NCBI GenBank assembly: GCA_948144175.1
Contig: CANXME010002051.1
Coordinates: 406,001 to 470,000 of the forward strand
Direction: 5' to 3'
DNA from: Closterium sp. NIES-65
Taxonomy: Eukaryota > Streptophyta > Zygnematophyceae > Desmidiales > Closteriaceae
DNA length: 64,000 nt
Below, in pieces: positions 3,667 through 52,007 of the stretch. Under the pieces are notes generated by a model that did not search any database, was not told the origin of the DNA, and was given only the letters and a program-made list of their open reading frames with translations. The position numbers and the translations under genes were made by a program. Position 1 is the first letter of the stretch, and every line of letters begins with the position of its first letter.

Positions 3667-4486
3667 TTGATGTGCATGACAACCAGGGAGTCGTCGGCGT
3701 CCATGCCCTTGTCGGGGAAAGTGTGTCGCGCCAGCTTCCCGCTGACGCACAAGACACACGGAGCGTCGGTGCCGGCCGATGGCTTGATGTCTAGGCCGGT
3801 GGCGACCTCGTGCTTCTCTGAGCTCGTGATGGTGTCAACGCCGAAGTGAGCAAGCTTCGCGTGCCACCTGGCCGGCGTTGTCAGTAGATCTGCACTGTGG
3901 ATGCCCGATTGATCCTGGAGAGGGTTACAGGCGCGTTCGCCTGGGGGGTTATGGGCGCACTGACCCGCTACTGAAACAAGCCCTTTTATCCCAATGGTCT
4001 AGTGGTTGGGATTCTGACAGGCGTCGACGTCGCCGTCGAGACGATCACCCGCAGAGCCACCGTATCTGTCGTGGTCGACATCAAATTCGTTGACGAAGGT
4101 CGGCGCAGAGAACCTGGGTGGTGTACGTTTCCAGCTGCCGAGACGAGGAGCATCTCGTCACCGTCGTCTTGCAGCTTCACACCGCTCTCCTTCAACTTGC
4201 CGGCGGATAGCAGGTTCGCTTGCACACCCGCGTCGTAGAGCACGTCGGGGATGAGCACCTGCTTCCCGGCTTCTCCTTGCAGGGCGACTGTGCCTCGGCC
4301 TTGGACGTCTTGCAACGCCCCATTGAAGCTCCGTACGTGGTTGACATCCCCGCTTGGCTTCAAGTAGACGAAGGCTGCCTTGATGCGATGAACCGCCACG
4401 CCTGGTGGCCGACGTCTAGGTGACTCCGGCATGACTTCAGGGCAATCTTTACTAGGTTCCTTGTGCAGAGTGAATGTAGATGACAA
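3667..4486 (-). pseudogene. Relic of a second Copia lineage (protease/pre-integrase region), split by a solo LTR
   Basis: Read on the minus strand, 4486-4020 gives a Copia protease C-terminal pattern (QGRGTVALQGEAGKQVLIPD followed by VLYDAGVQANLLSAGKL). Below the inserted LTR, 3878-3667 continues in the same sense with WHAKLAHFGVDTI and CVLCVSGKLARHTFP, the GAG-pre-integrase zinc-binding pattern. The protein differs clearly from the main Copia lineage of this window. The frame is interrupted by the solo LTR at 3879-4019. No LTR of its own was found. Confidence 0.7.
3879..4019 (+). mobile_element. Solo LTR of the TRIM family, with target duplication
   Basis: These 141 bp match the LTRs of the TRIM at 33101-33475 almost base for base. 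The copy is bounded by TGTCAG...CTGACA and flanked by the direct repeat GGCGT (3874-3878 and 4020-4024), a 5-bp target duplication. No internal region is present, so it is a solo LTR, probably left by LTR-LTR recombination. It contains the tRNA-like A box (TGGTCTAGTGG) but no B box. Confidence 0.92.
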
Positions 4487-4930: not shown

Positions 4931-5463
4931 ATATGCGCTTATAATAACTAATGATTTTTTAGGGGTGGCGCTTGTAATTGAGGAACGGCCATAAGCGCCG
5001 GCGCTTATAAAATGTCAAATTCCAATTTTGGTTTTCGAAATATTAAAGTGAAGCCCACAATAAGGCGAACACAACTGTGAACGTTGCGCATGGGATCGTG
5101 CATGAAATTCCGGCGAAAACTGCCGCGACTCGATTTCCCACCGCACAGAACCTGTCCTGGAGCAACGCACCTGCCAGCGATGACGTGCATCCTGGCGTGC
5201 GGCCCAATAGGGTTTACATGCGCTGCCAGGGTGCCACATTTCACCCGAACTTTCGAGAAGGGGGTGGCATATTCCTGCCAGCGCAGCAGATACGTGCCGC
5301 GATTCCCTCCTCTGCGGGTTTAGGCAGGGGGGGATTCGACTATGCCTGAAGAGGAACTCGAGCCGCACACCAGAAGGGGTCCCCTCCAAACCCTCATTTC
5401 TTCGCCTTCTCTTTCACTTTTTTCATTCAGATTCTTGGTCTCGCCCGCCATGCTGCGGAAGCC

Positions 5464-7719
5464 ATGGCGGAATTCGCTGGCACTCATTTCTTGTTCAAAA
5501 AGAAGCCCGCGCGTAGGCCCGCCTTCGTAGTTGACGCCGACGGATGGTACTCCCGTGTCCCACCTGAACCACCAGAGCCACCACAGCCTCCATCGCCTCC
5601 TGCGCCGCCTGCTCCTCCTGCTCCTCCTTTGCCGCCTGCGCCTCCTGCTCCTCCTGTTCCTCCGTCTCCTCCAATTCTGGGATGTCCTCACAACACAGGG
5701 GATCCGCCCGTGCTCACGCTCCTGCTCCCGACTGCGTTCGACGAGTGGCTGGAGGAACCGGAAAGCAACAAGGCCCAAGATGTTGAGGTACCCGGCGCAC
5801 CTTACCCTGGACCACGTTGGGGCCGGCCCGATGATTGCACCACGTGGGACGAATCTGCACTCGGAGCTGACGACGACGTGGCTGAGGACGAGGAAGCGAG
5901 CCGTGCTGACGGCGACGAGGAAGCGAGCCGTGCTGACGGCGACGAGGCTGAGGAAGGTGGCGCGCAGGGCGGCACCGCTGAGGATGTGTTTCCTGAGGGC
6001 GTACCTGGTGGCGACGACGACGACGGTGTCGAGTACTGGTCACGTGACGGGCTCCCCGAGGAACTGCCGATACCTTCCTTTCCACCAGCTAACCGCAAGC
6101 GACCCCACCCGTCTACCCAGAACCGTGATGCCCGCCCCCCCTCTCTCAGGCACAAGATCAGCGATCACAAGCGCAAAGGCTACACCGCTGCGGAGAAGTT
6201 GAAGTACGTCGCGATGCTGGATGTGGCGAAGTCGGTGCGCGCACTAGCTCGGGAGTGTGGGATTCACCGGAAGTGTCTCGCCAACTGGAAGGTGGCAGCG
6301 GGGTTTCTCAAAGAAGCACACTCCGGGCGGAAGCGCATGCACGGTCACGGGCGGGCCTCGTGGTACCGCTCCATGGAGTTGAAGGTGTACGAGCTGCTCC
6401 TGGACTGGCGCCGCAAAGGAACCGCCGTGTCGGTCGGCCGTCTGCGGGAGTGGTCGAGGGAGTTCATGAAGATCCTCTACCCGGACGTCAAGTGGAGCGG
6501 GAGTCAGAGATGGTCGGAGCGGTTTCGGAAGCGGTGGAATCTGAGCGTCCGAATGAAGACGCGGGTTGCTCAGAAAACAGCCGCTCGTAAGATTACGCCC
6601 CTTGCTTTTATGTCTAAGTTTCAGGTTCACTTACTAAACTGCCGTCTATCCCGCCCGCTTTCCCCCGTCTCACAGATCTTGCGGAGCAGTGCCAGAAATT
6701 CTGGCGTTTTGTCCGACACATGCGTCGCGCGCGCGGCATCGAGCCATGCTGGATCCTCAGCGCTGACCAGACGCCGCTCTGGCTGGAGATGCCCGCCACC
6801 ACGACCGTGGATCAGACGGGCGTACGGTCGGTGCCCATCCGGAGTGCAGGTTACCAGAAGGAGCGTGTGACCGTGATGCTGGCGTGCACGGCGGACGGGG
6901 CGAAGCTCAAGCCGTGGGTATTTTTCAAGCGGAAGACGCTGCCGAAGGGCAACTTTCCTCCTGGTAATAAGTAGCAACTGCCGCTGTCTTACCGTATCGT
7001 TTCTCATGCCGCGCTAAGTTTAAGTGCCATTTCTGTGTGCAGATGTGGTCGTGGCTTGCCACGAGAACGGGTGGATGAACGCAGAAGGCGTCATCCGCTG
7101 GCTTGAGGAGTGTGTCAAGCCCTTCTTGCAGCCCCGATTTGGCAGGTGTGCGAAGAGCTCTATGCTCGTGATGGATTCCTACGGCGGCCACCTTACCGAG
7201 GGGGTGAAGGAGAAGCTCCGCGAGATCAACTGCGTGCTTGCTGTCATCCCGTCGGGTTGTACGGGTGAGGTTCAGCCACTCGACGTCTCCATCAACAAGA
7301 GCTTCAAAGCATCTGTTCGTCAGCAGTACCAGAAGTGGTTTCAGGAGGAGGGCCAAGAGCAACTGACACCTGCAGGTACGTTGTTTCCGTTAAACACGCA
7401 GGTTTATCCCCCTTTCACCCTTGGTCACTGACATGGCTTTCCCGGGTGTCTCTGTTGCGGTGCAGGGAATCTGAAGAAGCCCCCCCCAGAAGTGGTCCTT
7501 CGATGGATTTCACAAGCCTGGAAAGCAGTACCCTCCGACCTCGTCAAGCGCGCCTTCCTCATCTGCGGCATTAGCAACGCGCTTGACGGCAGTGAGGACC
7601 ACCTCGCCATGGCGCACAGGCGGAGCCAAATGACGGCGGAAGTGGATGTAGACGACGGCATCATCGCCGACGGATTCTTCGGCAACAACTGCCAGGAGCC
7701 CGAGTCTGACGAGGAGTAG
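5464..7719 (+). CDS. pogo-type DDE transposase (four exons, 665 residues)
   Basis: Exons: 5464-6586, 6676-6963, 7043-7375, 7466-7719. All three introns are GT-AG and the phases join without a break. Order of parts: proline-rich stretch (about residues 34-75), acidic segment with a duplicated EASRADGDE unit, helix-turn-helix (KGYTAAEKLKYVAM ... ALARECGIHRKCLANWK, about 235-280), a second DNA-binding block ending GSQRWSERFRKRWNLS, then the DDE domain. Catalytic aspartates are seen in LSADQTPLW, VMDSYGGH and QPLDVSINKSFK, with 35 residues between the last two, a DDE_1/pogo pattern. It would bind the element's ends and catalyse cut-and-paste transposition in the nucleus. The ATG at 5464 starts the longest clean frame; an ATG 13 bases upstream is out of frame. 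The tail is acidic (EPESDEE). A domesticated gene is possible, but intact TIRs argue for a live transposon. Confidence 0.9.
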
Positions 7720-8009: not shown

Positions 8010-9012
8010 ATATCGATACCCATTATAGGTGCCGGAATTGTGGTTCGTACACCTAACCACTATTATTTTCTAGGGGAAACCCAACCCATTAATCTTGCGT
8101 TTCAAAGTTACCCTGCACGTTTTCGACTATTTCAGTTCGACACTTAGATGACTGGGGCTATGAATGATGCCTAATGCTCGAAGTTTAAACTCATGCGAAT
8201 CTGAATCCATAGCGCAATTCTACAACACTCTCTTCAGGGATCTGGAACAGACTCTCGCTAAAATTTACTGATGCCCCACACAACCCTCGGTCAAAGATTT
8301 AGAAAGGGTGCATACCCCACTTGTGCAAGTGGGGTTGACAATAGACCGAAAGAAAATAACGTTGGTTAGATGTAATTGATTCAGGTTTATTGAACAACAT
8401 TGGAAAATGATGTGGCAACGTTTAACGGGAATAGTTAAGTCTCATGATTTTCATTTCATTGTTGAAATGTTTATAAATCAACAATAAAAACAAGATGGAG
8501 ATGATAATGCTAACAATAGTCATATTTTATGCTAAGTGGATGTTATAAGCAGGAATATGAGTTCATATACAGCGTTGTAACATAGACTCCTGCACTTTTA
8601 GTTGTAACGGAGCCATTCACTTTGAAATGAAACAGGGTGAAGGAAGAATTTGGTGACTGGGCATTCTTCTCGATTCTGGGGCCCAGAAGTCCCTGTGGGG
8701 CTGGGGAATGAGCAAATCCTACGGCGCACTTTCCCCTTCAAATGAAAATCGACGGAGATCGCTTTACATCGGCGAGTGCCTTGGGGCACGCTTGGTGCCA
8801 CCGTGGAATCAAACCATTGGTTGCACCGATCGTCGCGACATCTTCACGCGGATAATGTCCGACATCTCCATCGCCCCGGGATTCCCACATCTCGAAGTTG
8901 CATCAGATTCTGCGCTGGTGCAGCCTCTCTGAAACCCCATTTCTCCTCCACGAGTGTGACTGGTTTGCAAGTGTACACTTCGCACACCTGCACTCCACGC
9001 ACATCTGACACC
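8010..9012. other. Intergenic region upstream of psbO
   Basis: This is AT-rich DNA from the pogo-like element to the psbO start. No gene or mobile element was recognised. The last 300 bases should contain the psbO promoter and 5' UTR, but no confident TATA box could be placed. Confidence 0.45.
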
Positions 9013-10225
9013 ATGGCCGCCACCGCTGCGTCCGCCAGCCTCAAGGCTTCCACGTTCGTGCAGCCTAAGATCAATGCCACCTCCCTCAAGGCTGCTCCCG
9101 TCTCGCAGGCTTTCGGCCTGAAGACTGCCTCCGCCAAGGTGTCATGCTCCGCGGAGGAGAATGTGCGCGGCTTCGTGCAGAAGTGCGCTGATGCCGGCAA
9201 GGCCGCTGCTCTTGCCCTCGCCTCCACTGCCCTGGTCGCCTCGGTAAGTCGGATGAGCATTGAAGGCTAAATTGTAGAAGCGCCAGAGCCCTTAGTTCCT
9301 GCATCAGACTCGAATTTTCAATTGGACTGGACTTTTCGTTTGAATCCGAGCGTAGACATCTTTGCCGCTGCTACAGTCGAGAGCTAGATTTTACTCAATT
9401 CGCCTTTCCTGCGTCCCTGCTTTTGTTTGTCTTTTTCTCATCCACCTTTCCTGCGTCCCTATTCTTCTTGTCGAACAGTCTGCCCAGGCCGCGGTTCCCA
9501 GGCTGACCTTCGACGAGCTCCAGAGCCTGACCTACTCCGAGGTGAAGGGCAGCGGCATCGCCAACCAGTGCCCCATCATCGCTGGCGGCGTTGACGGCTT
9601 CGCCTTCAAGTCCGGCAAGTACCAGGTCTCGAAGATGTGCTTGGAGCCCACTGGCTTCACCGTGAAGGCGGAGTCGCAGTTCAAGGGCCAGGGCGAGGAC
9701 TTCCAGAAGACCAAGCTCATGACCCGCCTCACCTACACCCTGGATGAGATCGAGGGTCCCCTCGAGGTGAACGGAAACAACCTCAAGTTCACGGAGGTCG
9801 ACGGAATTGACTACGCCGCCGTCACCGTCCAACTCGCGGGTGGTGAGAGGGTTCCGTTCCTGTTCACCATCAAGGAGCTTGTTGCCTCCGGCCCCGCTGA
9901 CAGTTTCGGAGGGTCGTTCCTCGTGCCATCGTACCGTGGCGCCACCTTCCTTGACCCTAAGGGCCGCGGTGGTGCTCAGGGCTATGACACCGCTGTCGCT
10001 CTGCCCGCCGGTGGTTTCGGCGATGAGGACAAGCTGCAGAAGGAGAACCAGAAGAGCTACAAGTCCCTGAGCGGCAACATCCAGTTCAGCGTTGCCAAGT
10101 CGAATGTGGAGACCGGTGAGATCGGCGGTGTGTTCACGAGCGTGCAGCCGTCTGACACAGATATGGGTGCCAAGGTGCCCAAGGAGGTGAAGATTGAGGG
10201 CATCTGGTACGCCCAGCTTGACTAA
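9013..10225 (+). CDS. psbO: Oxygen-evolving enhancer protein 1 (PsbO, 33-kDa subunit of photosystem II)
   Basis: Exons 9013-9243 and 9479-10225 (intron 9244-9478, GT-AG, phase 0) give 325 residues, the usual size for a PsbO precursor. PsbO is the extrinsic lumenal protein that stabilises the Mn4CaO5 cluster of photosystem II. A Ser/Ala/Lys-rich stromal transit peptide (residues about 1-50) is followed by a hydrophobic lumen-targeting stretch ([14 protein letters not shown]) and a thylakoid processing site after AQA. The mature chain starts near [12 protein letters not shown]. Family marks include [10 protein letters not shown] and KMCLEPTGF, holding the two conserved cysteines, plus [25 protein letters not shown] and the C-terminal [28 protein letters not shown]. 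The intron falls exactly at the lumen-targeting part. The context ATGGCCGCC supports the start. The gene appears intact. Confidence 0.98.
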
Positions 10226-16400: not shown

Positions 16401-19400
16401 CAGGTGCGCAGCAGGCTGCAGGGCGCAGCCAGCGCGCTCCCCCCTGCCCCCCATGCGCTGGGCAGCACCACGTTCGGGGGAGGGGCGGATGGGACAAGCT
16501 TCGCCGCCCCAAAGGTGGCGAGCGACTTCCTGACGGCGGAGGAGATGGAGCAGCGGCGGGCGGCAGCACAGTTCCGAAAGCCAAAGCGGAAGAAGGAGAG
16601 CCGAAGGCGACGAGGGGGGGAGGAGGGGGGTGAGGAGGGGGAGGGTGGAGCAGGGGAGGGAGGAGGGGGTATGATCAAGAAGAAGAGGAAGAAGGAGAAA
16701 TTGGATTTGGATAAGCTAGAGGCGCAGGCTCGGGCGGCAGGTTTAGGGAGAGGTTCGGATCTGGGGAGGAGGGACGGGGAGGGAGGGACGGGGGTGACGG
16801 CGAGGCGGAGGGAGGAGCAGGCAAGGGAGGAGAGGGGTGGGCGGGCGGCGTATGAGAGCGCCAAGGCCAAGGCGATGCAGGCCTCGATGGTGCTGAAGGG
16901 GGAGAGGGAAGGGGGCGCAGGGGAGGAGGGTGGAGTGGGTGGCAGGGAGGAGAGGGGGGTTGTGAAAGAGGAGATGGATGTGCATGGGCGCGTGGGGGGG
17001 ACGGGTGGGTGGGAGGAAGGGGGTGGAGGGACAGTGGTGAAGAGGGAAGAGGAGGAGCAGGAGAAGGGCGAGGGCGAGGAGGCGGGACGGGAGGGGGAAG
17101 AGGAGGAGGAAGAGGTGGAGGAGGGGGAGGGGGATGACACGGTGGTGATAGGCGATGACGATGAGGACCTGCAGCGGTCGCTGCAGCGCACCCGACAGCT
17201 CGCCCTCAGGCGCCGGCAAGACGAGCTCGCCGCTGCTGCCAGGGCCGCTGCCGCTGCTGCTGGGGATGGGGGTGGGGATGGGGGTGACGTGGGGAAGGTG
17301 AAAGAGGAGGCGGACGTGGGAGCCGGGAGTGGTGCGGGCATTGCGGGGGTAAGCCCAGCAGTGAGGGGCGAGGCTCTGGTGCTGGCGCGGGTGAAGCAGG
17401 TGGGGCGGGTGAGGAGGCGGGGGGGGCGACGGGGAAGGGGAGGGCGTGGAGGGTGGGGAGGGAGAAGGCGCGGAGGGCGTGGGGCGCGGGCTTGTGTTCA
17501 GCGACACGGGGGAGTTCTGCCGCGGCTTGCAGCTGGATGATGGTGAGATGGCAGGATGATGGTGAGGTGGCAGGATGATGGTGAGGTGGCAGGATGATGG
17601 TGAGGTGGCAGGATGATGGTGAGGTGGCAGGATGATGGTGAGGTGGCAGGATGATGGTGAGGTGGCAGGATGATGGTGAGGTGGCAGGATGATGGTGAGG
17701 TGGCAGGATGATGGTGAGGTGGCAGGATGATGGTGAGGTGGCAGGATGATGGTGAGGTGGCAGGATGATGGTGAGGTGGCAGGATGATGGTGAGGTGGCA
17801 GGATGATGGTGAGGTGGCAGGATGATGGTGAGGTGGCAGGATGATGATGAGGTGGCAGGATGATGGTTAGGTGGCAGGATGATGGTGAGGTGGCAGGATG
17901 ATGGTGAGGTGGCAGGATGATGGTGAGATGGCAGGATGATGGTGAGGTGGCAGGATGATGGTGAGGTGGCAGGATGATGGTGAGGTGGCAGGATGATGGT
18001 GAGGTGGCAGGATGATGGTGAGGTGGCAGGATGATGGTGAGGTGCAGGATGATGGTGAGGTGGCAGGATGATGGTGAGGTGGCAGGATGATGGTGAGGTG
18101 GCAGGATGATGGTGAGGTGGCAGGATGATGGTGAGGTGGCAGGATGATGGTGAGGTGGCAGGATGATGGTGAGGTGGCAGGATGATGGTGAGGTGGCAGG
18201 ATGATGGTGAGGTGGCAGGATGATGGTGAGGTGGCAGGATGATGGTGAGGTGGCAGGATGATGGTGAGTGGCAGGATGATGGTGAGGTGGCAGGATGATG
18301 GTGAGGTGGCAGGATGATGGTGATGGTGGCAGGATGATGGTGAGGTGGCAGGATGATGGTGAGATGGCAGGATGATGGTGAGGTGGCAGGATGATGGTGA
18401 GGTGGCAGGATGATGGTGAGGTGGCAGGATGATGGTGAGGTGGCAGGATGATGGTGAGGTGGCAGGATGATGGTGAGGTGGCAGGATGATGGTGAGGTGG
18501 CAGGATGATGGTGAGGTGGCAGGATGATGGTGAGGTGGCAGGATGATGGTGAGGTGGCAGGATGATGGTGAGGTGGCAGGATGATGATGAGGTGGCAGGA
18601 TGATGGTGAGGTGGCAGGATGATGGTGAGGTGGCAGGATGATGGTGAGGTGGCAGGATGATGGTGAGGTGGCAGGATGATGGTGAGGTGGCAGGATGATG
18701 GTGAGGTGGCAGGATGATGGTGAGGTGGCAGGATGATGGTGAGGTGGCAGGATGATGGTGAGGTGCAGGATGATGGTGAGGTTGCAGGATGATGGTGAGG
18801 TGGCAGGATGATGGTGAGGTTGCAGGATGATGGTGAGGTGGCAGGATGATGGTGAGGTTGCAGGATGATGGTGAGGTTGCAGGATGATGGTGAGGTGGCA
18901 GGATGATGGTGAGGTGGCAGGATGATGGTGAGGTGGCAGGATGATGGTGAGGTGGCAGGATGATGGTGAGGTGGCAGGATGATGGTGATGGTGGCAGGAT
19001 GATGGTGAGGTGGCAGGATGATGGTGAGGTGGCAGGATGATGGTGAGGTGGCAGGATGATGGTGAGGTGGCAGGATGATGGTGAGGTGGCAGGATGATGG
19101 TGAGGTGCAGGATGATGGTGAGGTGGCAGGATGATGGTGAGGTGGCAGGATGATGGTGAGGTGGCAGGATGATGGTGAGGTGGCAGGATGATGGTGAGGT
19201 GGCAGGATGATGGTGAGGTGGCAGGATGATGGTGAGGTGGCAGGATGATGGTGAGGTGGCAGGATGATGGTGAGGTGGCAGGATGATGGTGAGGTGGCAG
19301 GATGATGGTGAGGTGGCAGGATGATGGTGAGGTGGCAGGATGATGGTGAGGTGGCAGGATGATGGTGAGGTGGCAGGATGATGGTGAGGTGGCAGGATGA

Positions 19401-22400
19401 TGGTGAGGTGGCAGGATGATGGTGAGGTGCAGGATGATGGTGAGGTGGCAGGATGATGGTGAGGTGGCAGGATGATGGTGAGGTGGCAGGATGATGGTGA
19501 GGTGGCAGGATGATGGTGAGGTGGCAGGATGATGGTGAGGTGGCAGGATGATGGTGAGGTGGCAGGATGATGGTGAGGTGGCAGGATGATGATGAGGTGG
19601 CAGGATGATGGTGAGGTGGCAGGATGATGGTGAGGTGGCAGGATGATGGTGAGGTGGCAGGTTGATGGTGAGGTGGCAGGATGATGGTGAGGTGGCAGGA
19701 TGATGGTGAGGTGGCAGGATGATGGTGAGGTGGCAGGATGATGGTGAGATGGCAGGATGATGGTGAGGTGGCAGGATGATGGTGAGGTGGCAGGATGATG
19801 GTGAGGTGGCAGGATGATGGTGAGGTTGCAGGATGATGGTGAGGTTGCAGGATGATGGTGAGGTTGCAGGATGATGGTGAGGTGGCAGGATGATGGTGAG
19901 GTGGCAGGATGATGGTGAGGTGGCAGGATGATGGTGAGGTGGCAGGATGATGGTGAGGTGGCAGGATGATGGTGAGGTGGCAGGATGATGGTGAGGTGGC
20001 AGGATGATGGTGAGGTGGCAGGATGATGGTGAGGTGGCAGGATGATGGTGAGGTGGCAGGATGATGGTGAGGTGGCAGGATGATGGTGAGGTGGCAGGAT
20101 GATGGTGAGGTGGCAGGATGATGGTGAGGTGGCAGGATGATGGTGAGGTTGCAGGATGATGGTGAGGTTGCAGGATGATGGTGAGGTTGCAGGATGATGG
20201 TGAGGTTGCAGGATGATGGTGAGGTGGCAGGATGATGGTGAGGTGGCAGGATGATGGTGAGGTGGCAGGATGATGGTGAGGTGGCAGGATGATGGTGAGG
20301 TGGCAGGATGATGGTGAGGTGGCAGGATGATGGTGAGGTGGCAGGATGATGGTGAGGTGGCAGGATGATGGTGAGGTGGCAGGATGATGGTGAGGTGGCA
20401 GGATGATGGTGAGGTGGCAGGATGATGGTGAGGTTGCAGGATGATGGTGAGGTTGCAGGATGATGGTGAGGTTGCAGGATGATGGTGAGGTGGCAGGATG
20501 ATGGTGAGGTGGCAGGATGATGGTGAGGTGGCAGGATGATGGTGAGGTGGCAGATGATGATGGTGAGGTGGTGCAGGGCATGATGATGTGAGGTGGCAGG
20601 ATGATGGTGAGGTGGCAGGATGATGGTGAGGTGGCAGGATGATGGTGAGGTGGCAGGATGATGATGAGGTGGCAGGATGATGGTGAGGTGGCAGGATGAT
20701 GGTGAGGTGGCAGGATGATGGTGAGGTGGCAGGATGATGGTGAGATGGCAGGATGATGGTGAGGTGGCAGGATGATGGTGAGGTGGCAGGATGATGGTGA
20801 GGTGGCAGGATGATGGTGAGGTGGCAGGATGATGGTGAGGTGGCAGGATGATGGTGAGGTGGCAGGATGATGGTGAGGTGGCAGGATGATGGTGAGGTGG
20901 CAGGATGATGGTGAGGTGGCAGGATGATGGTGAGGTGGCAGGATGATGGTGAGGTGGCAGGATGATGGTGAGGTGGCAGGATGATGGTGAGGTGGCAGGA
21001 TGATGGTGAGGTGGCAGGATGATGATGAGGTGGCAGGATGATGGTGAGGTGGCAGGATGATGGTGAGGTGGCAGGATGATGGTGAGGTGGCAGGTTGATG
21101 GTGAGGTGGCAGGATGATGGTGAGGTGGCAGGATGATGGTGAGGTGGCAGGATGATGGTGAGGTGGCAGGATGATGGTGAGATGGCAGGATGATGGTGAG
21201 GTGGCAGGATGATGGTGAGGTGGCAGGATAATGGTGAGGTGGCAGGATGATGGTGAGGTGGCAGGATGATGGTGAGGTGGCAGGATGATGGTGAGGTGGC
21301 AGGATGATGGTGAGGTGGCAGGATGATGGTGAGGTGGCAGGATGATGGTGAGGTGGCAGGATGATGGTGAGGTGGCAGGATGATGGTGAGGTGGCAGGAT
21401 GATGGTGAGGTGGCAGGATGATGGTGAGGTGGCAGGATGATGGTGAGGTGGCAGGATGATGGTGAGGTGGCAGGATGATGGTGAGGTGGCAGGATGATGG
21501 TGAGGTGGCAGGATGATGATGAGGTGGCAGGATGATGGTGAGGTGGCAGGATGATGGTGAGGTGGCAGGATGATGGTGAGGTGGCAGGTTGATGGTGAGG
21601 TGGCAGGATGATGGTGAGGTGGCAGGATGATGGTGAGGTGGCAGGATGATGGTGAGGTGGCAGGATGATGGTGAGATGGCAGGATGATGGTGAGGTGGCA
21701 GGATGATGGTGAGGTGGCAGGATAATGGTGAGGTGGCAGGATGATGGTGAGGTGGCAGGATGATGGTGAGGTGGCAGGATGATGGTGAGGTGGCAGGATG
21801 ATGGTGAGGTGGCAGGATGATGGTGAGGTGGCAGGATGATGGTGAGGTGGCAGGATGATGGTGAGGTGGCAGGATGATGGTGAGGTGGCAGGATGATGGT
21901 GAGGTGGCAGGATGATGGTGAGGTGGCAGGATGATGGTGAGGTGGCAGGATGATTGTGGTTAAGTGGCAGCTAGAAAGCGTGTTTTTTTTAGAATCTGTT
22001 GTCCATTCTTGTCACGTACCCAGCTCTCTTTGCTATCCCCCTCTTGCTGGCCGGTTTCCCCTCTCCGCTGCGCTGCCAGGCAAGCATGGGTGTATGGTCG
22101 CAAGGCATGAGAGGAGTGGATGCGTGCAGGGGCATTGAATTCAGCCACCACAGCAGCACAACAGCAAGGAGGCAGTGCGCTGCCGGCTGCTTGCTGCATG
22201 TTCTCTGCGGACCCACCTTCTTGCTCGTCTCCTCTCTCGTCTCCTTGCCTGCTCCCTGCAGCGCTGGTGAAGCGAGTGAATGCAAGGGAAGCTGCTGCCG
22301 CCGCCAAGGAGGAACTGGCTGCCGCCGCTGCTGCCCTCCCTGTCCCGCCCTCCTCCTCCTCTGCTGCTGCTGCTGGCACCGGGAGTGCAGACGGGGGTGG

Positions 22401-32428: not shown

Positions 32429-33095
32429 GACCATTTTCCGTGTTGCTGTAGAAGTAACACTGACAAATCAGTGTAGTGTCGTGAGTCATACTGAAACGGA
32501 CTTGACCGATTTGGGGGGGGAGGGGGGGGAAGGGGGGGGGGGGGGTACGCGTGCGTACAGTATGTACCTGGCTCGGGATTCACGAGATCCCACCCACACA
32601 CTTGGAGATGCCATGCGCTGTAAAGCAGATCGCGTGCCGACGTGCTTTGCATTGCTGGAAGGAACTCTCACAGCGGCAAACTTTGAGTTGAATTGGTGAT
32701 TCAACATTGTTTTTCTTTTTTACACTGATGTTTCAGTCTACTTATGATTTTAACACTGGCAAAATCAGTAAAAAAAAAACCATGAACACTGATTTGGACA
32801 GTGCGTGAGCACTCTTTCTCCCCCCCCCTGGGAACTGCTGCCCACCAAAATGTGCACAGCTGCGCGGGCACAAAACCCCAACCACCCTGACGCAGAATAC
32901 CAAGTGTTATGACCTAGCCGCCTGAAATTCAGCCGCTGTGCAGTCGAAATTGCTGTCGGTGGCGAAATCTTCACTGTCGAAAACCCCGAAAAATGCCCAG
33001 AGTAAACTCTGTCGAAGTCCCTTCGAAATAATATATTTTTGTGCAGGGACTCGGCATTAAGAATTTCTTCGTGTTGTCTTGTTGTCGCGACGGTT
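32429..33095. other. Intergenic stretch with a long G tract and a primer-site-like word
   Basis: No gene is seen. Features: repeated ACACTGA words, an almost pure G tract at about 32511-32546 (G8-A-G8-AA-G14), and ATACCAAGTGTTATGAC at about 32906. On the minus strand that word resembles the end of an LTR plus a tRNA-Met primer site (CATAACACTTGGTAT), probably a decayed LTR element. Confidence 0.4.
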
Positions 33096-33100
33096 GCTGC

Positions 33101-33241
33101 TGTCAGTAGATCTGCACTGTGGATGCCCGATTGATCCTGGAGAGGGTTACATGCGCGTTCGCCTGGGGGGTTATGGGCGCACTTACCCGCTACTGAAACA
33201 AGCCCTTTTATCCCAATGGTCTAGTGGTTGGGATTCTGACA
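33101..33241 (+). repeat. 5' LTR of the TRIM
   Basis: TGTCAG...CTGACA, 141 bp. It matches 33335-33475 and the solo LTR at 3879-4019. It contains TTTT at 33206-33209, then the A-box-like word at 33217-33227. Confidence 0.95.
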
Positions 33242-33271
33242 TGGTATCAGAGCGGTCTCGGGTTCGATTCG
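33217..33271 (+). promoter_or_regulatory. Putative split Pol III (type 2) promoter: A box in LTR, B box in internal region
   Basis: A box TGGTCTAGTGG is at 33217-33227 and B box GGTTCGATTCG at 33261-33271, start to start 44 bp. The A-box surroundings match tRNA-Glu over about 19 bases with one change. The B box differs from GGTTCGANTCC only at the last base. The primer site lies between them. The acceptor stem does not pair, so this is not a functional tRNA. Promoter activity is inferred. Confidence 0.6.
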
Positions 33272-33334
33272 CGGTGTATGCACATGTAGGCCGTTGCCAC
33301 TGTGCTTAGTCCTGGGCCTCCCAGTGTGGGGGGG

Positions 33335-33475
33335 TGTCAGTAGATCTGCACTGTGGATGCCCGATTGATCCTGGAGAGGGTTACAGGCGCGTTCGCATGG
33401 GGGGTTATGGGCGCACTTACCCGCTACTGAAACAAGCCCTTTTATCCCAATGGTCTAGTGGTTGGGATTCTGACA
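33335..33475 (+). repeat. 3' LTR of the TRIM
   Basis: 141 bp, with two differences from the 5' LTR (T/G and C/A in the first half). The TTTT tract lies at 33440-33443. No B box follows it, because the flanking DNA begins at 33476. Confidence 0.95.
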
Positions 33476-33480
33476 GCTGC

Positions 33481-35126
33481 ATCATCTCTCGTGACTGCCA
33501 CCTCGAAAACCCCCGCGTGGCAGTATCAAATCACTTGTCTGCTGCCCAATCTCCAGTTGACAGCTGCTGCAATCCCGAATTGTTGCTGCCGTTTGGCTGG
33601 TTGCTGTGGCGAAAATCTTCGCTGTAGTGTTCCAGTTGTCGGCGCCCTCGGCAGTTTTGTCCAGACTCGCCGAGGCCTTTGTCGCGTTGCTCCGAAAACT
33701 CCCGGGCAGGGACGAATACAGCTGATGCTCTTCCCCCTGACCTCGCAAATATTTTTTCCAAACTCGAACTGGAATTGTCGATGACGTCAGCTGCCTCAGC
33801 GACGTTGTCGTGACTCGCCGAAAACTTCGGGGCAGAGGCGAAAAAGCTGTCCTTCCTCCCCCCACCTGTTGCGAGACAATTCACAGGTGTTGCGGCTGGT
33901 ACCCCTGAAACTCTGCAGATTTTTCCAGCAGTTTCGCTTATCCCAGCGCCCCTGCAACTCCGCCGTTTTCACGAAATTGTCGACCGTCACCGCCGAACTC
34001 TTGTAAAACCGATACTCGGTACTCTCCGTAAATGTCGGTGTCGAAAATCCTTGTACGTCTTGGTCATCTGCAGGTTATCCCTTTGAAGAACCGGTGTGTC
34101 TAGCGTGCCCACCCGTCGCCATTTTTCTCTCCGTGGTTAACCACACTAGCAACCCACCAATAGGAGGTGCTCTTTCGTGCGGAACCCAGAGTCATGGGTC
34201 TACCGGGACCGAATTTCATGGAACCTAGTCCGCATCAACGCCGCAGATCTCGCCGTAGAATTTCCCTAGCTGGCTTCGAAGTACACCGTAAACCGCTGAA
34301 ACAGCTGGCAAGCAGACGTTCACTCGTCTCCCACCGTAGGAAAGAACCCCGAAAATCATGGTTGAGGCAGCAGTCCCGAAGTTATTTTCCGCCGTTAAGC
34401 CCCGACGTTTCCGCCGTTAACGCTGATACTCCGATGTTCACCCATCTTCATACCCGTCGAAGTCACTTAGCGAATCCCAGGTATCCTTGGCGATGCACCC
34501 CTCGCCGCGCCTCCATGTAAAAGTATCAAACCCTTACGGGTGTCTACCGAATAGACTCCGAAATTCGCGGTGGAGTGGTGCACGTTCTCAACCTATCACT
34601 CTAGTGATCTGCTGGATCTTCCAAAATTTTCCCTCCAACACTTATTTTTTGTCTTCACCCCCCGACAATTTCGCTTGCCGCCATTCACCCAGCGTCCGCT
34701 CTTGTCGGATGAGGTTTAACTCTGTGTTGCCCACGATTTTCTAACATTCGGTTAAGGCGCGAACGCTATCGTAGCCGGGTCATGTTTATCAGATCAAACA
34801 GTCGGACCGGCCGCTTCGTTGCCCACCGCGTCTATCGCATTTAAAACTCCACAGCTTCGGAAAGCCCCTTCTTCACCGCTACACCATGTCGGGTAGACCG
34901 TTGAATTAGGAGAAACTCCGAGAGCTGCACCAACTGCTTCAGCTTCGACTTTTTCGGCGTGGTAACTGTGAAATTGAACGAGAATAAAGGAGTGGTTGCA
35001 CTAGCAGCAATGAGGATACATATAGCAAACCCCAGATGGGTTGTACTCGCTATAGAGCACCCCACTACAGGCTAGAGAATAACATTATGACAGTAACTCC
35101 TGCCGATGGTCCGATTTTGTCGGGGC
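33481..35126. other. Intergenic repeat-like DNA, no gene recognised
   Basis: The stretch is rich in CGAAAA/TTTTCG words and similar in texture to 43277-44387, which suggests an old degraded element into which the TRIM and Copia D later inserted. Short open frames on both strands show no domain. Confidence 0.35.
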
Positions 35127-44655: not shown

Positions 44656-44785
44656 TGTGAAAAGAATGAACAGGAATGAAATGACTAAGTCAGAGTTGGG
44701 TACAAATACTACCCTAGAAAGCTGTACCCCATATGTGCTACCCCACTATAGCCTACAAACATGCATCAGTTATAATACTCTGACA
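44656..44785 (-). repeat. 3' LTR of Copia G
   Basis: 130 bp, identical to 51873-52002, adjoining the polypurine tract at 44786-44815. Confidence 0.97.
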
Positions 44786-44996
44786 CACCCCCATAGGCAA
44801 AGTGGGGGAGAACAAGGGGTCACAAGACCAGTCAAGCAAAGCAAAGCAAAGCAAGCTCAGGGTGGATCACAAAGTCACCACACAGTCCGAGCACAAGAGC
44901 AGGGCCAGAGGCCAGTTCACATGCAGGAGTACAGACATATATATAAAACTAGACAAGCAAGAGCAGGTATATATATATGTCACAGTACAAGTGAAG

Positions 44997-47900
44997 TCAA
45001 GAGGAGAGCAAGTGAGGTAAGACAGGCACAAGCCCCAGCTGGGTGCAAAAGCGCTGATGGTCACAAGGCGCGAGTGCCTTGGTGAACACATCAGCAGTGT
45101 TGGCCTCAGAGGCCACGTACGCAAGTCGCAACTGACCACGCTGCTGCAGCTCACGAGCAAGGAAGTAGCGGAGAGCAATGTGCTTCGTTCTGTGCTCCAA
45201 GCGCTGCTCTCGACACAAGGCCAGCATGGCCTTGTTGTCTACGTACAGCACTGGAGGAGAACGAGGCGGCTCTCCAAGGTCAGTCAGCAGGTAGGTGAGC
45301 CAGCGAAGCTCCTGTGCAGCCATGGCCCCGGCGTAGATCTCAGCCTCACAACTGGAGCCGAGAACCGAAGACGAGCGAGTAGACCGCCACGAGACAGAGC
45401 CGGAACCAAGGCTGAAGGTGTAACCCTGTGACGACCGCTGCGTAGCCTGGTCGTCAGCCCAAGAAGCGTCCGCGTGGCCGGTAAGGACCACTGGACTCCG
45501 CCCTCCAAGCACTAGCCCCATGCCCGACGTACTGCACAGGTAGCGCAATACCCTCTTCGCTGCAGCCATGTGCTCTGGTCTGTGTCTCCCAGGAGCAACA
45601 TAGCGTGCAAGAATGCTCAGAGGGTATGCAAGGTCAGGTCGTGTGCAGGTCATCAGGTACATGAGGCAGCCAACAAGCTCTGCATACGGACCACTCGACT
45701 CTACGGACTCATCCGAAGGCAGAGCTGAGAGTGAGTGGCGAGTAGGCAGAGGAGTGGCCTGAGGCGAGGAGTACGTGAAGCCGAAGCGCTGAAGGACCTG
45801 CTGCACCATGTGTGACTGAGTCGAGGTAATGGTGCGGCGTGCTCTGTCCCGAGTGATCTGCAAGCCAAGGTAGCTGCGCAGTTCACCCAGGTCTGTGCAC
45901 GTGTGTCTCTTCAGCAGCTCGGACTTCACGTAGGCGAGTCCAGCAGTGTCCGCTGTGGCAAAGACCAAGTCGTCGACGTACACGAGGATGTAGAACGGCG
46001 GCAGGGAAGTGTCGGTGCGAAGAAACAGCGACGGGTCAGCAGTAGAAGGAGCAAACCCAAGAGCCGCAAGCGTAGTCCTCAGTGTGTCGTGCCACTCACG
46101 CGGTGCCTGGCGGAGACCGTAGACTGGCCGTCGGAGGCTCCACTGGGTGCCAGGAGGGAAAGTCCCAGTGAAGCCAGGTGGACGGCGAAGCCAGATCTCC
46201 TCGTGCAGGCTACCCTGCAAGAACGCAGTGCTGAAGTCGAGAGACTGAAGCTCGTAGTCGCGCTGAGCGGCTATGTGCAGCAGCACCCGAAGAGTAGTCA
46301 TCTTTGGGGTGGGAGAGAAGGTCTGAAAGTAGTCAACTCCCTGCCGCTGACTGAAGCCACGAGCAACGTACCGTGCCTTGAAGACAGGTGGCGAGCCCGG
46401 CGGCCGCTTCACCCTGAAGATCCACATGCCACTGACGATGTTCGCCCCAGGAGGGGGAACCGCGTCAACGTAGGTGCCTGTGGACTTCCAGGAAGCCATC
46501 TCTGCATCCATAGCTGCATGCCACTGAGAGGAGTAGGGACCCTCTAAGGCCTCCGCGTAAGAACGCGGAGTCGGGATGTCTAGTGCATCCGGGTCTCCCT
46601 CAGGGGCAAGCAGTACAGACGCGAGATGAGGTGAAGCAGCCGCTAGACACTGGAACTCCTCCTGCCTGTCCTCTAGGACGTCCGTGCCAAGAGCATACTC
46701 ACCCCCGACGGACGGAGGACAGACAGACACAGACTCAGCAACAAGACTAGCAGCGTAGTCGAGACGACAGCGAGCAGCAAAGTCGACGAGCTCAGCGACT
46801 AGAGCGGACGCAACAGTGGACTCAAAAGCGGGGTCAGTGACGACAGTAGCAAGTAGACGCGTGACAGTAGGACTGGCAGCATGAAGAGAGTCCGACTCAG
46901 GGTCGGCAAGCGCAGGAAGAGAGGACTCAGGAGGAGAAGGCAAAGGGGCACGCAGAGGAGCAGTGGACGGACGCAAAGACATCCGGTGCGTGCCAGGGAC
47001 AGGAGGAGGACGCTGACGCGAACCGCGACCACTAGCGCGAGCAGCACGAACAGGCGACGCGGGACGAGACGCAGGCTCACGACGCTCAGTAAGACCTCCA
47101 GTAGGACCAGTGTAAGGAGAGGGAGCAGGCAGTGGAGAGGAGGGCTCCAGCAGGGACTGCGACTGGACAGGCGGTGGACCCTCTACTGGAGGAGAAAGAC
47201 CAAGAACCGGCTGCAGGAGCGGAACGAAGTACGGCCGAGGCCGCGCGGCAGCTCCAGACTCAGCAGGGACAGCACCAGCACCCTCAGCGACAGCACCAGC
47301 GCCACCCACACCTCCAGCGGCAGGACCAACAGCAGTAGGCTCAGCACCAACGCCCTCAGCAGCTCCAGCTCCAGGAGGACCCGCAGGTCCAGCAGCTCCG
47401 GGACCGGCAGCACCCGCACCCTCGACGGTCGAAGAAGCTCCAGCTCCAGCTCCAGCAGCACCTCCAGACTCAGCAGCACGCCTCCAGCGGCGAGCGAACC
47501 ACTCGCGCAGCTCCTGTGGAGAGAGGGGCTCCCGGCGAGACGCAGCAGCAGGAGAAACCCCAGGCTCAGCAGCTCCAGACGCAGCACCTCCAGGCTCAGC
47601 AGCTCCCAGCTCAGCACCCCCAGGCTCAGCAGCTCCCGACCCAGCACCCCCAGACCCAGCACCTCCAGGCACAGCACCCCCCGGCTCAGCACCCCCAGGC
47701 TCCGCACCCTCCGCAGTAGCACCCCCAGGCCTAGCACCCCCAGCAATAGCACCCCCAGGCTCAGCACCCCCGCGCACAGCACCCCCAGAGTCAGCACCCC
47801 CAGGCTCAGCACCCGCAGCAGCACCAGAGTCACCAGTAACCTCGACCGGGTCAACGGCGTCTACCTGGGACACACCTGAGGGGGCAGGAACCTGAGGGGG

Positions 47901-50900
47901 GAGGGGGTCTACCGGGGGGGGAACCGGCACAAGGAAGTCCGGGGGAGGGGGGAGGGAAGGAGTGCGGTAGGGGAAGAGACGGTAGAAGGGGACTGACTCG
48001 TCGAACGTGACGTCCTGGGAGGACAGAACACGATGAGAGGAGGGGTGGTAAAACTGCCACCCTGGGGCGTCAGTGGGGAAGCCAAGGAAGACACAGGGAG
48101 CAGCACGAGGGGACAGCTTGTCCGCAGACAAGTCGTGGACAAACGCCCGAGATCCCCAGACACGGAACACAGACGCATCGCCAACCTTCCCCGTCCACAG
48201 CAAGGCTGGGGACATCGCAGGCCGAGAGACCCGGGGGTGAAGGTTGAGCTGATGCGCCGCGTACCTCACCGCAAACGGCCACAGAAAATGGGGGGCAGCC
48301 GCATGCATCATGGACGTACGAGGGACATCCATGACCATGCCAATGCGGCGCTCAGCAATCCCATTTTGCTGTGGTGAGTCCGGAAGCGTGAAGGTCTGGC
48401 GGATCCCCCGTGCACGACAGTAGTCTCGCAGAAGGCGAGAAGAGAACTCTCCGCCTCTGTCCGAGTGCAGACGCAGAACAGGGAAGTCAGAGCCAAAGCT
48501 CTTCCTGAGCTGGAGACGAGCCTCGCGGATCCAGTCGATCAGCACCTCAGTGACCGCACCCTTGCTGCGCAAGGGGAGGACTGTGGTGTAACGCGAGTAG
48601 TCGTCAACCACCAACAGGAAGTAGCGCTCGTGACCCTGCCCACGGACGGGGGCTGGGCCCCACACATCCATGTGAAGCGTCTGCAGGGGAGCCTCTGTCG
48701 GGGGGAAGTGGGAGGAGTGAGGAGTAGCCCGGAGGCGACCCTCGACACAGGGGACACAGGAAGGTCCTGGCCCGGAGGGGAGAGGAGGGAGAGACTGGGG
48801 AAGACCAGAGACAAGGACACGGGAAGCCATGCTCCGAAGACGGGGCAAGGAGGGGTGGCCAAGACGGTGGTGCCACAGGAGAGTCTCGTGAGACAGGAGG
48901 CGACAAGAACAGGGGGCAGACTCAGGACCTGACCGGGACGCAGCAGCAAGCACCTGACCTGACGCAGCCACCTGACCAGACGCAGGGACAGGAGGAGACT
49001 CAACGGTCAGGGTGTAGAGACTCGACCCCGGCCGACGCGAGAACGTGGCCAGGTGTCCGCCTGTGCGTGCCTCCGTGCAGTGGGTCACCCGCTGACTCGC
49101 AGGAGTGAACTGGTGAACCCCCACATCCTGCAGGTCCGCGCCACTCACCAAGTTCGTAGAGAACGAGGGAAGGTACAGACCAAACAGGGTGCCCGAAGGG
49201 GCAGCCGGACACGGGAGGACAGTGGAGAAGTGAGACAGGACAGGACCCCCAGAGGGGTCAGCAAGGGAGACTGCAACCGGCCGGTCGAGCGGCGTAAGGG
49301 TAGTGCGGTCTCGAAAGAAGGAGCGAGAAGCCCCGGAGTCAAGTGTGAAAGTGAGGGAGGACGAGGACGACGCAGTACCTGAGAGCGCAGTCTCACCAGT
49401 ACCTGAGAGCGCAGACGCACTGGCACCTAGAGCAGCAGCCTCACAAGCACCTAGCGCAGCAGTACCAATGCCCGGGTCGGGCTGGAAACACCGGTAACCG
49501 TCATTCTCCTCACTATAAGTCACAGCATACATAGCAGCAAGGATAGCATCAAAATCAAGATCAAAGATCGCTACACCAGCCCTAAGAAGCTCATCCCAGC
49601 GAGGGATCTCAGTAGCCCCAGGGAACTGCTGACGCCAAGCGTCCGTCAGGCGGCCAAAGCAGCGCTGGGCAGCGTGGGCACCCCCACACTGCTCACCCGC
49701 GCGGTCGCCGGAACGAAGAACGTAGGTGCAGGGACCAGTACCCCCACCCCTCTGACGCTGCGCGTACCACTCACGAAGCTGCTGAGGCGGAGGGATGTCC
49801 CGCGAGCGCTGCGTCTGCTGCCGCTGCGAGCGCTGGCCACCACCACCGCCGCTACGCTGCTGGGTACCACCCCGACCAGCTCCACCTCCTCCACCACCAC
49901 TGCCTCCTCCGCTGCCGCCTCCACCGCCTCCACCTCCGCCGCCTCCACCTCCGCCGCTGCCGCCACCACCACCGCTGGCACCACTACCACCGTCTCCGCC
50001 GCTGCTGCCACCACCACCACCACCACCCCCGCCACTAGTCCCGCCGCCACCCCCACTCCCTCCGCCGCCACCGCCGCCACCGCCACCGCCCCCTCCAGCT
50101 CCACCCGCGCCCTTGCCCCCCTTGCCCTTGCTGGAGCGACGTCTCCCACTAGGGGCAGACGCCGCGCCGACCGACTCAAGACCAAGCAGGTCGGCAGCAG
50201 CAGCAGAGGCAACAGAGGGCAGCAAGGGGGAAGGAGAGCACCCCTCAAAGATGGGGGTGCGAGGGTCACCACGAGAAGCACCTACAGCGACTATGCTCTT
50301 CTCCGCTGCGAGGAGGGCCTTCTCGAGGAGGTCGACGGTGAGGGTGGTGGGACAGACTCCGAGAAAGTGGTCCCTGACGACGCGAAGGGAGTCAGGGAGG
50401 CGCGCGACTACGTAATAGAGAGCGATGTACATGGGGGGGGGGGTTCTTAGCGCAGAACTCAGCAGGAAGGGCGGCGCGGTAGCGAGTGTCACTAGTGCGG
50501 AGGTGCGTAATGAGATCAGCGACAGTGGGAAAGGCAGAGAGGTCAGGAAAGAGGTAGGGAAGCATGAGACGGCTCAGTGCAGCAGTGGCAGGGGAGGAGT
50601 AGCGCGCAACTACAGCGTCGTACAAGGTCTGAGCACTCTTGTACTGACTAAAGTGCGCACGCTCAGAGGTAGGGAGGTGGCGACGCACAGCAAGACGTGC
50701 AGCAGCATCGCGGGTGGCCCACTGAGAGCGGACAGTGGGATCGGCATCAGCAGCAGGAGCAAGAGAGGCGCCAGAGGTGAGGTCAAAGAGAGAAAGGCCG
50801 TCAGCCCTGTCGCACTGTAAGAACAGCTGCAGGTCGTCTAACCAGACCTCAAAATCAATGGCGCGACCCTCAGCGTCAAAAGCTAGGACACAAGGGGTAG

Positions 50901-50904
50901 CCAT
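44997..50904 (-). CDS. gag-pol: Copia G Gag-Pol polyprotein (about 1968 residues if one base is removed)
   Basis: It starts MATPCVLAFDAEGR at 50904. An 11-base C run (G run 50433-50443) shifts the frame by one; ten bases would give one open frame to the stop at 44997. Parts in order: Gag N-domain; poly-glycine block (about 50100-49880); knuckle CTYVLRSG ... CGGAHAAQRC (about 49735-49665, CX13CX3HX4C); protease LDSGASRSFF (about 49340); integrase zinc finger WHHRLGHPS ... CVPCVEGR (48885-48740); integrase core DVWGP, DYSRYT, LHSDRGGEFSS, PQQNGIAERRIG (48670-48345); AEPGG-type spacer (47830-47540); RT GMWIFRVKRPPG to YVDDLVFAT (46430-45960); RNase H ADASWADDQ and YVDNKAMLALC (45470-45225). Catalytic residues are intact. 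It would copy the element in cytoplasmic particles and integrate it in the nucleus. Confidence 0.9.
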
Positions 50905-50949
50905 GACGACGACAGCGAAGCAGTGCAAGCAGTAGGGGAAGAGCACGCA

Positions 50950-51860
50950 GTGACAGTGCGACTGTGCTCACCAGGCAGGGCAGGCCGGGCAACTCTGCAG
51001 AAGGGCGGCTCGGCGACTCAGTGACTCGGCTGCTGGGCGGCTCGGCTCCCGGGCGGCTCGGCGGCAGGGCGGCTCGGGTGCAGGGCGGCTCGGCGGCAGG
51101 GCGGCTCGGGTGCAGGGCGGCTCGGCTCCCGGGCGGCTCGGCGGCAGGGCGGCTCGGGTGCAGGGCGGCTCGGCGGCAGGGCAGCTCGGGTGCAGGACGG
51201 GGCCGAGACAGGGGACGGCGGGGCCGTCAGGGTGCAGCGGCGGGGCCGGCAGGGTGCAGCGGCGGGGCCGGGACAGGGGACGGCGGGGCCGTCAGGGTGC
51301 AGCGGCGGGGCCGACTGGTGCAGTGGCGGGGCCGTCAGGGTGCAGCGGCGGGGCCGTGACAGGGGACGGCGGGGCCGTGACAGGGGACGGCGGGGCCGTT
51401 AGGGTGCAGCGGCGGGGCCGACAGAGGTGCAGCGGCGGGGCCGGCAGGGTGCAGCGGCGAGGCCGGGACAGGGGACGGCGGGGCCGTCAGGGTGCAGCGG
51501 CGGGGCCGACAGGTGAAGTGGCGGGGCCGTCAGGTTGCAACGGCGGGGCCGAGAGTAGGACGGCGGGGCCGTCAGGTGACGGGGCCCGCTGCAGCAACGA
51601 AGAGGCCACGCGGCCGGCGTGAGGGCGGCGCGGCGCGGCAGAGCCGAGAGGGCGGCGCGGCGCGGCCGTAAGGCCAGCGCGACGTGGGGCCCGGGCCGCG
51701 CGCGCGAAAAAAAAGGAGTCGCGCGCGCGACTCTCGGGGCGCCACAAGGGCAGCGCGGCAAGCACTAGGGGGGAGCGCGCCTCGGGGAGAATAGGGCGCG
51801 CTCCGGGCAGGAAAAATAAATCGTGGGTGGGCCCTTAAGAAACGGTCCTTAGGAGGGACC
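50950..51860 (-). repeat. GC-rich tandem arrays in the Copia G leader
   Basis: Two arrays are visible: CGGCAGGGCGGCTCGGGTGC-type units at about 51040-51190, then GCGGCGGGGCCGTCAGGGTG-type units at about 51210-51570. Open frames through them (Arg/Gly/Ala-rich) are composition effects. Confidence 0.8.
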
Positions 51861-51872
51861 CGCTCTATACCA

Positions 51873-52002
51873 TGTGAAAAGAATGAACAGGAATGAAATG
51901 ACTAAGTCAGAGTTGGGTACAAATACTACCCTAGAAAGCTGTACCCCATATGTGCTACCCCACTATAGCCTACAAACATGCATCAGTTATAATACTCTGA
52001 CA
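51873..52002 (-). repeat. 5' LTR of Copia G
   Basis: 130 bp. On the minus strand it is directly followed by TGGTATAGAGCGGG. Confidence 0.97.
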
Positions 52003-52007
52003 CGAAT

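Follow-up and report, generated by a model that had tools for sequence, protein, structure and literature searches.

A TRIM family of Closterium sp. NIES-65 with a candidate tRNA-type Pol III promoter split over the border between 5′ LTR and interior

Introduction

LTR elements hold their promoter twice, so that one promoter remains at the 3′ end of the element and in each solo LTR. In the accessible part of their description, the Helenus elements are defined by a tRNA-derived sequence located in the LTR, with one plant species listed (Kojima 2024, PMC10886601), and the LTR and interior of Helenus-1_SMo from Selaginella measure 120 bp and 85 bp, respectively (PMC10886601). For plant TRIMs, the portions of the literature at hand give methionine tRNA as the primer. 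The present analysis concerns a TRIM located in a 64,000-nucleotide stretch of the genome of Closterium sp. NIES-65 (hereafter the window). Judging from its sequence, the template RNA of this TRIM is probably produced by Pol III, from an internal promoter of tRNA type that spans the border between the 5′ LTR and the interior. If true, splitting the promoter over this border would offer a simple sequence-level way to start RNA at one end only, and the range of tRNA-type TRIMs would reach the algae related to land plants.

Anatomy of the element

The segment 33101-33475 is a complete TRIM of 375 bp, made of two 141-bp LTRs and a 93-bp interior. An alignment of the two LTRs (33101-33241 and 33335-33475) shows 2 differences in 141 bases; both LTRs start with TGTCAG and end with CTGACA. 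The interior opens with the primer binding site (PBS) TGGTATCAGAGC, which we take to be of the methionine initiator tRNA type, and closes with a G-rich tract. All the features of the TRIM class are present: short LTRs, a total length below 1 kb, no coding capacity (the six-frame translation of the 375 bp contains stops in all frames), PBS, PPT and TSD. The features of the element and of a solo LTR of the same family are as follows, with their basis in brackets.

33096-33100, no strand: left TSD, GCTGC (sequence)
33101-33241, + strand: 5′ LTR, 141 bp (LTR pair alignment)
33199-33201, + strand: CAA triplet located 18 nt before the A box, in the region where Pol III is proposed to start (role inferred via the accessible part of PMC11700998)
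33206-33209, + strand: TTTT of the 5′ LTR (sequence)
33217-33227, + strand: A box TGGTCTAGTGG of the 5′ LTR (motif match)
33219-33234, + strand: D-arm-like hairpin, GTCT/GGAT (predicted fold)
33235-33251, + strand: anticodon-arm-like hairpin, TCTGA-CATGGTA-TCAGA, formed by the LTR end and the primer site (predicted fold)
33242-33253, + strand: primer binding site TGGTATCAGAGC (sequence)
33258-33274, + strand: T-arm-like hairpin, with one stem mismatch in the window copy (predicted fold)
33261-33271, + strand: B box GGTTCGATTCG; family forms GGTTCGATTCC or GGTTCGAATCC (motif match)
33326-33334, + strand: polypurine tract, mostly G (sequence)
33335-33475, + strand: 3′ LTR, 141 bp, with A box and without B box (LTR pair alignment)
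33440-33443, + strand: TTTT of the 3′ LTR, at which Pol III is proposed to terminate (role inferred)
33451-33461, + strand: second occurrence of the A box TGGTCTAGTGG, in the 3′ LTR (motif match)
33476-33480, no strand: right TSD, GCTGC (sequence)
3879-4019, + strand: solo LTR of the TRIM family, with an A box at 3995-4005 and no B box (sequence)

The initial annotation had reported that an A box lies in the LTR and, 44 bp away, a B box in the internal region, the primer site falling between them; both the arrangement (33217-33227, 33261-33271 and 33242-33253, respectively) and the distance, counted from start to start, are confirmed. The A box is found in both LTRs and the B box in the interior only, where it differs from GGTTCGANTCC by one mismatch, at its last base. 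The window was searched for A boxes matching TRGYNNANNGG exactly that have, 30-65 nt further on, a B box with no more than one mismatch; one pair was found on the + strand and none on the - strand, while 40 shuffled 64-kb windows contained on average 0.0 pairs with the strict B box or 0.2 (at most 1) with the looser one. When the TRIM itself was shuffled, a box pair appeared in 25 of 20,000 sequences, and at a spacing of exactly 44 in 1 of 20,000. The A/B box pair is rarer than what chance is expected to supply.

The locus is not a tRNA gene in the usual sense: ARAGORN and Rfam called no tRNA at the TRIM, and its junction does not form a closed cloverleaf with an acceptor stem as a tRNA gene does. 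Rfam gave no match at gathering score across the window, and no 5S match at E up to 10 on 33051-33525. The surroundings of the A box presumably resemble tRNA-Glu over about 19 bases. A related A-plus-B pattern searched in viral contigs matched tRNA genes in four contigs, two of Glu and two of Asp.

It had further been proposed that only full-length copies carry the promoter. This holds for the solo LTR at 3879-4019, which is devoid of B box and flanked by the TSD GGCGT (3874-3878 and 4020-4024), but not for tandem LTR-interior arrays, which rebuild the promoter in each unit.

Copies and subfamilies

A search of the 874-Mb genome of the same strain with the TRIM as query gave, for the best 40 of 1,589 candidates scored, at least 44 matches, 42 of which are full-length, with 96-100% identity. 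The 30 loci fetched with this query hold 37 full units, including 28 single copies. Perfect TSDs were found for 22 of the 37 full units; those of the 28 single copies are perfect in 22 cases and show one mismatch in the other six. The LTR pairs of single copies have 0 to 4 differences per 141 bases and are identical in 6/28. These near-identical LTR pairs, together with the TSDs, indicate that the family moved recently. A second query, a divergent unit, recovered subfamily II and gave at least 95 matches for the best 40 of 3,047 candidates scored.

Altogether, 101 LTR-interior units were read at the 60 loci of both queries. Conservation was counted on 85 distinct units from 53 loci (33 of subfamily I, 23 of subfamily II and 29 of subfamily III), leaving out L086, L087, L088 and L089 (two units), whose fetch pattern demanded parts of both boxes. 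It should be emphasized that copies were chosen by their similarity to a query with both boxes. Exact searches of the genome found the LTR end followed by the PBS at 2,670 places and the LTR end carrying the A box at 5,855 places; both backward controls returned 0.

LTR-interior tandem arrays are common, one of them (L034) comprising five units. In the arrays L028 and L034, the outer flanks share one 5-bp duplication (GCCTC and GAGGT, respectively), as if each array had been inserted or had grown as one unit. Since subfamilies share arrays, their LTRs may have recombined.

Conservation of the boxes

An unconserved B box among full-length copies had been named as the outcome that would speak against the proposal, and it did not occur. 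Subfamilies I and II together comprise 56 distinct units; the B box matches GGTTCGANTCC in 49 of them and lies within one mismatch of it in all 56; the A box is intact in 54, and the TTTT is present in 52. In subfamily I, these counts are 32/33 for the A box, 27/33 for the B box and 30/33 for the TTTT; in subfamily II, they are 22/23 for each of the three. A CAA is found upstream of the A box in 52/56 units, at 18 nt in 33/33 units of subfamily I and at 18-19 nt in 19/23 units of subfamily II. The 44-bp spacing is kept in subfamily I (33/33); in subfamily II, the distance is 46-48.

Subfamily III (L052-L081) has the PBS variant TGGTGTCAGAGT and has mostly lost the strict A box (kept in 5/29 units) and the TTTT (9/29) together, while keeping the B box (22/29). 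It is still numerous and found in arrays.

The commonest B box is GGTTCGATTCC in subfamily I and GGTTCGAATCC in subfamily II; each fully matches GGTTCGANTCC, and the position that differs between them is the free position of the B box. Between these two subfamilies, the divergence per site is 0.011 for the A box and 0.014 for the PBS, compared to 0.097 for the remainder of the LTR. The B box gives 0.022 if the free position is left aside and 0.108 if it is counted. Element bases 181-225 reach 0.70, mostly because subfamily II lacks 27 nt. A divergence as low as that of the A box is found in 15 of the 224 11-column windows, and one as low as that of the whole B box in 124 of 224. Within subfamily I (37 units), the frequency of minority letters per site is 0.0049 and 0.0074 for the two A boxes and 0.027 for the B box, for a mean of 0.0226.

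The expectation that the boxes are conserved beyond the rest of the element is therefore borne out for the A box but not, within subfamily I, for the B box (0.027 versus 0.0226). An excess of B-box conservation shows up in the comparison of subfamilies alone, and there on condition that the free position is excluded (divergence of 0.022 versus 0.097 for the rest of the LTR). Overall, the A box is clearly conserved; for the B box, conservation can be seen when subfamilies or strains are compared, but not inside the young subfamily I. The counts in units of subfamilies I and II support the split layout as a property of the family rather than a feature of a single copy.

Relatives in other Closterium strains

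Translated frames of the TRIM matched 68 predicted proteins, all from Closterium NIES-54 or NIES-53, some of them weakly (E up to 10). The codons of the A box and of the PBS occur in one frame at 30 places in 27 of the 68 proteins, and those of the B box follow at 24 of the 30 places, in a sample that is biased since the query contained the codons of the A box, PBS and B box. The codons of the subfamily III A-box variant also occur in NIES-54 proteins. The window carries a nuclear PsbO gene with at least two exons (8746-10225, + strand). A query joined from its exon translations is 100% identical to a protein of Closterium sp. NIES-65, and a PsbO of NIES-54 is 87% identical to the window protein. 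Therefore, the layout would be either old or passed between strains.

Copia elements and other features of the window

No box pair is present at the junctions of the three Copia elements of the window (CopA, CopB and CopC), whose LTRs measure 131-141 bp. A TATA is present in the LTRs of CopA and CopB and absent from those of CopC and of the TRIM. Copia elements of this genome resemble the TRIM by a similar LTR length, an LTR starting with TGTCA and a related PBS; they differ from it by the lack of an A/B pair at the junction, by their LTR sequence and by the presence of gag-pol. Places where the LTR end is followed by a Copia-type PBS (n = 128) were considered as TRIM/Copia recombinants, a reading that was rejected for three of the four fetched (L093-L095), which are Copia elements with their own LTR; about 2.5 kb of each was read, and they share with the TRIM the LTR end GATTCTGACA. 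The fourth (L096) is a chimera. Like L082:5633-7197 and L076, it has an LTR of TRIM type followed by a PBS and interior of Copia type, the switch falling exactly on the LTR/PBS border. C10:434252, present in both pattern lists, should be another such chimera. The shared LTR end GATTCTGACA and the chimeras point to Copia as the helper, although the chimeras could alternatively originate from DNA recombination at the shared bases.

One Copia element of the window (44656-52003, - strand) has two LTRs without a difference over 131 bp, along with a 1,858-aa open frame, and therefore appears to be a recent insertion. The window also includes a 19-bp minisatellite (17535-21958; about 233 copies, 98% matches) with a strong skew of G over C, and an open frame of 506 aa (5350-6870, + strand) whose helix-turn-helix look presumably relates it to pogo or CENP-B-type transposases.

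Proposed transcription

In the model that we favor, the 5′ border would be the one place where TFIIIC binds the A and B boxes. Pol III would start near the CAA (about 33200), run for about 244 nt and stop at the TTTT of the 3′ LTR (33440-33443). The RNA would carry the same 10-nt R (AAGCCCTTTT) at both ends, which would serve the first strand transfer; a methionine tRNA, paired with the PBS that separates the two boxes, would act as primer, and the enzymes would be supplied by a Copia element. The 3′ LTR and solo LTRs would start no RNA into the flanks, since they hold an A box only. In flowering plants, a CAA just upstream of tRNA genes is the start site and at least four T form the terminator, according to the accessible part of PMC11700998. 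The repeat at the ends of Cassandra RNA, which is comparable to the 10-nt R of the model, is 18 bp long in the available text of PMC10886601.

Each LTR has a TTTT 7 nt ahead of its A box, and the window TRIM has no other run of three or more T. The TTTT of the 3′ LTR is intact in all 28 single copies, 27 of which have no further TTTT between the two. In shuffled sequences, no other TTTT was found in 48%, which makes this absence not rare by chance, and no TTT in 3%. The TTTT of the 5′ LTR, 6-9 nt past the proposed start, might cause an early Pol III stop. The thousands of copies in this genome and the relatives in other Closterium strains make a direct comparison of solo LTRs and full copies possible.

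tRNA-like arms and possible origin

The junction can be folded into arms that follow the order of a tRNA: a D-like stem, an anticodon-like stem with a 7-nt loop formed by the LTR end and the PBS, and a T stem. The middle stem has five pairs in 56/56 units of subfamilies I and II and in 22/29 of subfamily III, this pairing being largely dictated by the letters of the LTR end and PBS; the T stem has five pairs in 49/56 units of subfamilies I and II. The three-arm form, devoid of acceptor stem, has an energy of -11.2 kcal/mol versus -13.0 for the lowest-energy fold, and the RNA fold of 33209-33334 is unremarkable (z -0.75).

This apparent tRNA in pieces is a lead about the origin of the element. 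Tentatively, the LTR/interior border may run through the anticodon arm of an ancestral tRNA, the D arm falling on the LTR side and the T arm on the interior side. On this view, a Pol III unit of tRNA descent would have turned into an LTR element through a primer site in its anticodon arm, its TTTT end supplying R. Although possible, this scenario is one that we would not presently favor over its negation. In such an element, the promoter could not be duplicated by reverse transcription, so that RNA would start at the 5′ end only and solo LTRs would be silent.

The search for a source did not identify a parent tRNA. A host tRNA-Glu with this A box was rejected, all 15 places found in the genome being TRIM copies. 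When the genome was searched for members of the tRNA family, 63 matches were scored among 18,457 candidates and no loci were obtained; many of these matches, sharing one score on few contigs, were taken as organellar. Viral contigs contained neither the LTR end nor the A box with the PBS (0 for each), and prokaryote contigs did not contain the A box with the PBS (0). The PBS followed by GGTTCGA occurs once in viral contigs and 16 times in prokaryote contigs; none of these 17 places has an A box in the 50 nt before it, and they were taken as chance.

Alternative explanations

The element could be an ordinary Pol II TRIM, in which the LTR drives Pol II and the boxes are unused relics of a captured tRNA or SINE. 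Most plant TRIMs are indeed taken as Pol II elements (PMC12786077, in its accessible part), the B box has no extra conservation within subfamily I, and subfamily III persists despite a broken A box and TTTT. However, both boxes and their spacing are kept across two subfamilies and in other strains, the difference between the B boxes of subfamilies I and II falls on the free position, and the TRIM LTR has no TATA; we consider this explanation unlikely.

Very improbable, in our opinion, is a B-box-like stretch that would merely be part of the pairing with the primer tRNA or of the leader of the helper. The stretch lies a few bases past the PBS and its likeness to a B box would follow from T arms being nearly their own reverse complement, GGTTCGAATCC sharing 9/11 letters with its own; but no such stretch is found behind the PBS of the three Copia elements of the window, nor within 120 nt in L093-L095, a proper T arm with five stem pairs is formed in most units of subfamilies I and II (49/56), and the A box is left unexplained. 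Even less credit can be given to a spread of the units mainly as tandem DNA repeats, with box conservation due to array homogenisation: this would fit the abundance of LTR-interior arrays, such as the five units of L034, but hardly the 28 single copies, each of which has its own TSD (22 perfect, six with one mismatch).

Comparison with known systems

If transcribed by Pol III from its split promoter, the Closterium TRIM would share with tRNA-derived SINEs a short Pol III RNA, in addition to A and B boxes at tRNA spacing. SINEs of this type are not known to have LTR, PBS, PPT or the structure with integrase-type TSD, all of which are present in the Closterium element.

Cassandra likewise has a promoter of Pol III type, an RNA running from the 5′ LTR to the 3′ LTR and short end repeats (PMC10886601 and PMC12786077, as far as the accessible texts go), and also forms tandem arrays (PMC7215508, accessible part). 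In contrast, as given in these portions of the sources, its promoter derives from 5S rRNA and lies wholly within each LTR, whereas that of the Closterium TRIM would be of tRNA type and split over the border. The initial annotation had presented the latter as a design distinct from Cassandra. This is only partly upheld: TRIMs with a tRNA-derived promoter have already been published as Helenus (PMC10886601, accessible part), so that nothing but the split seems new. A search of open-licence papers found no TRIM with a split promoter.

Like the Closterium TRIM, Helenus elements combine tRNA-type A and B boxes, PBS, PPT, solo LTRs and a proposed Pol III promoter; their plant and fungal families have a 5-bp TSD, and the fungal ones are tied to Copia, another likeness (all from the available portion of PMC10886601). 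In Helenus, according to the same portion, both boxes are located in the LTR, whereas the Closterium TRIM has the A half in the LTR and the B half in the interior, Helenus-1_SMo being compared by its description. Since its B box lies outside the LTR, the Closterium TRIM is not a Helenus by this definition. Taken as a whole, this element seems to be a TRIM with an apparently undescribed split, which would work like the Pol III TRIMs if the model holds.
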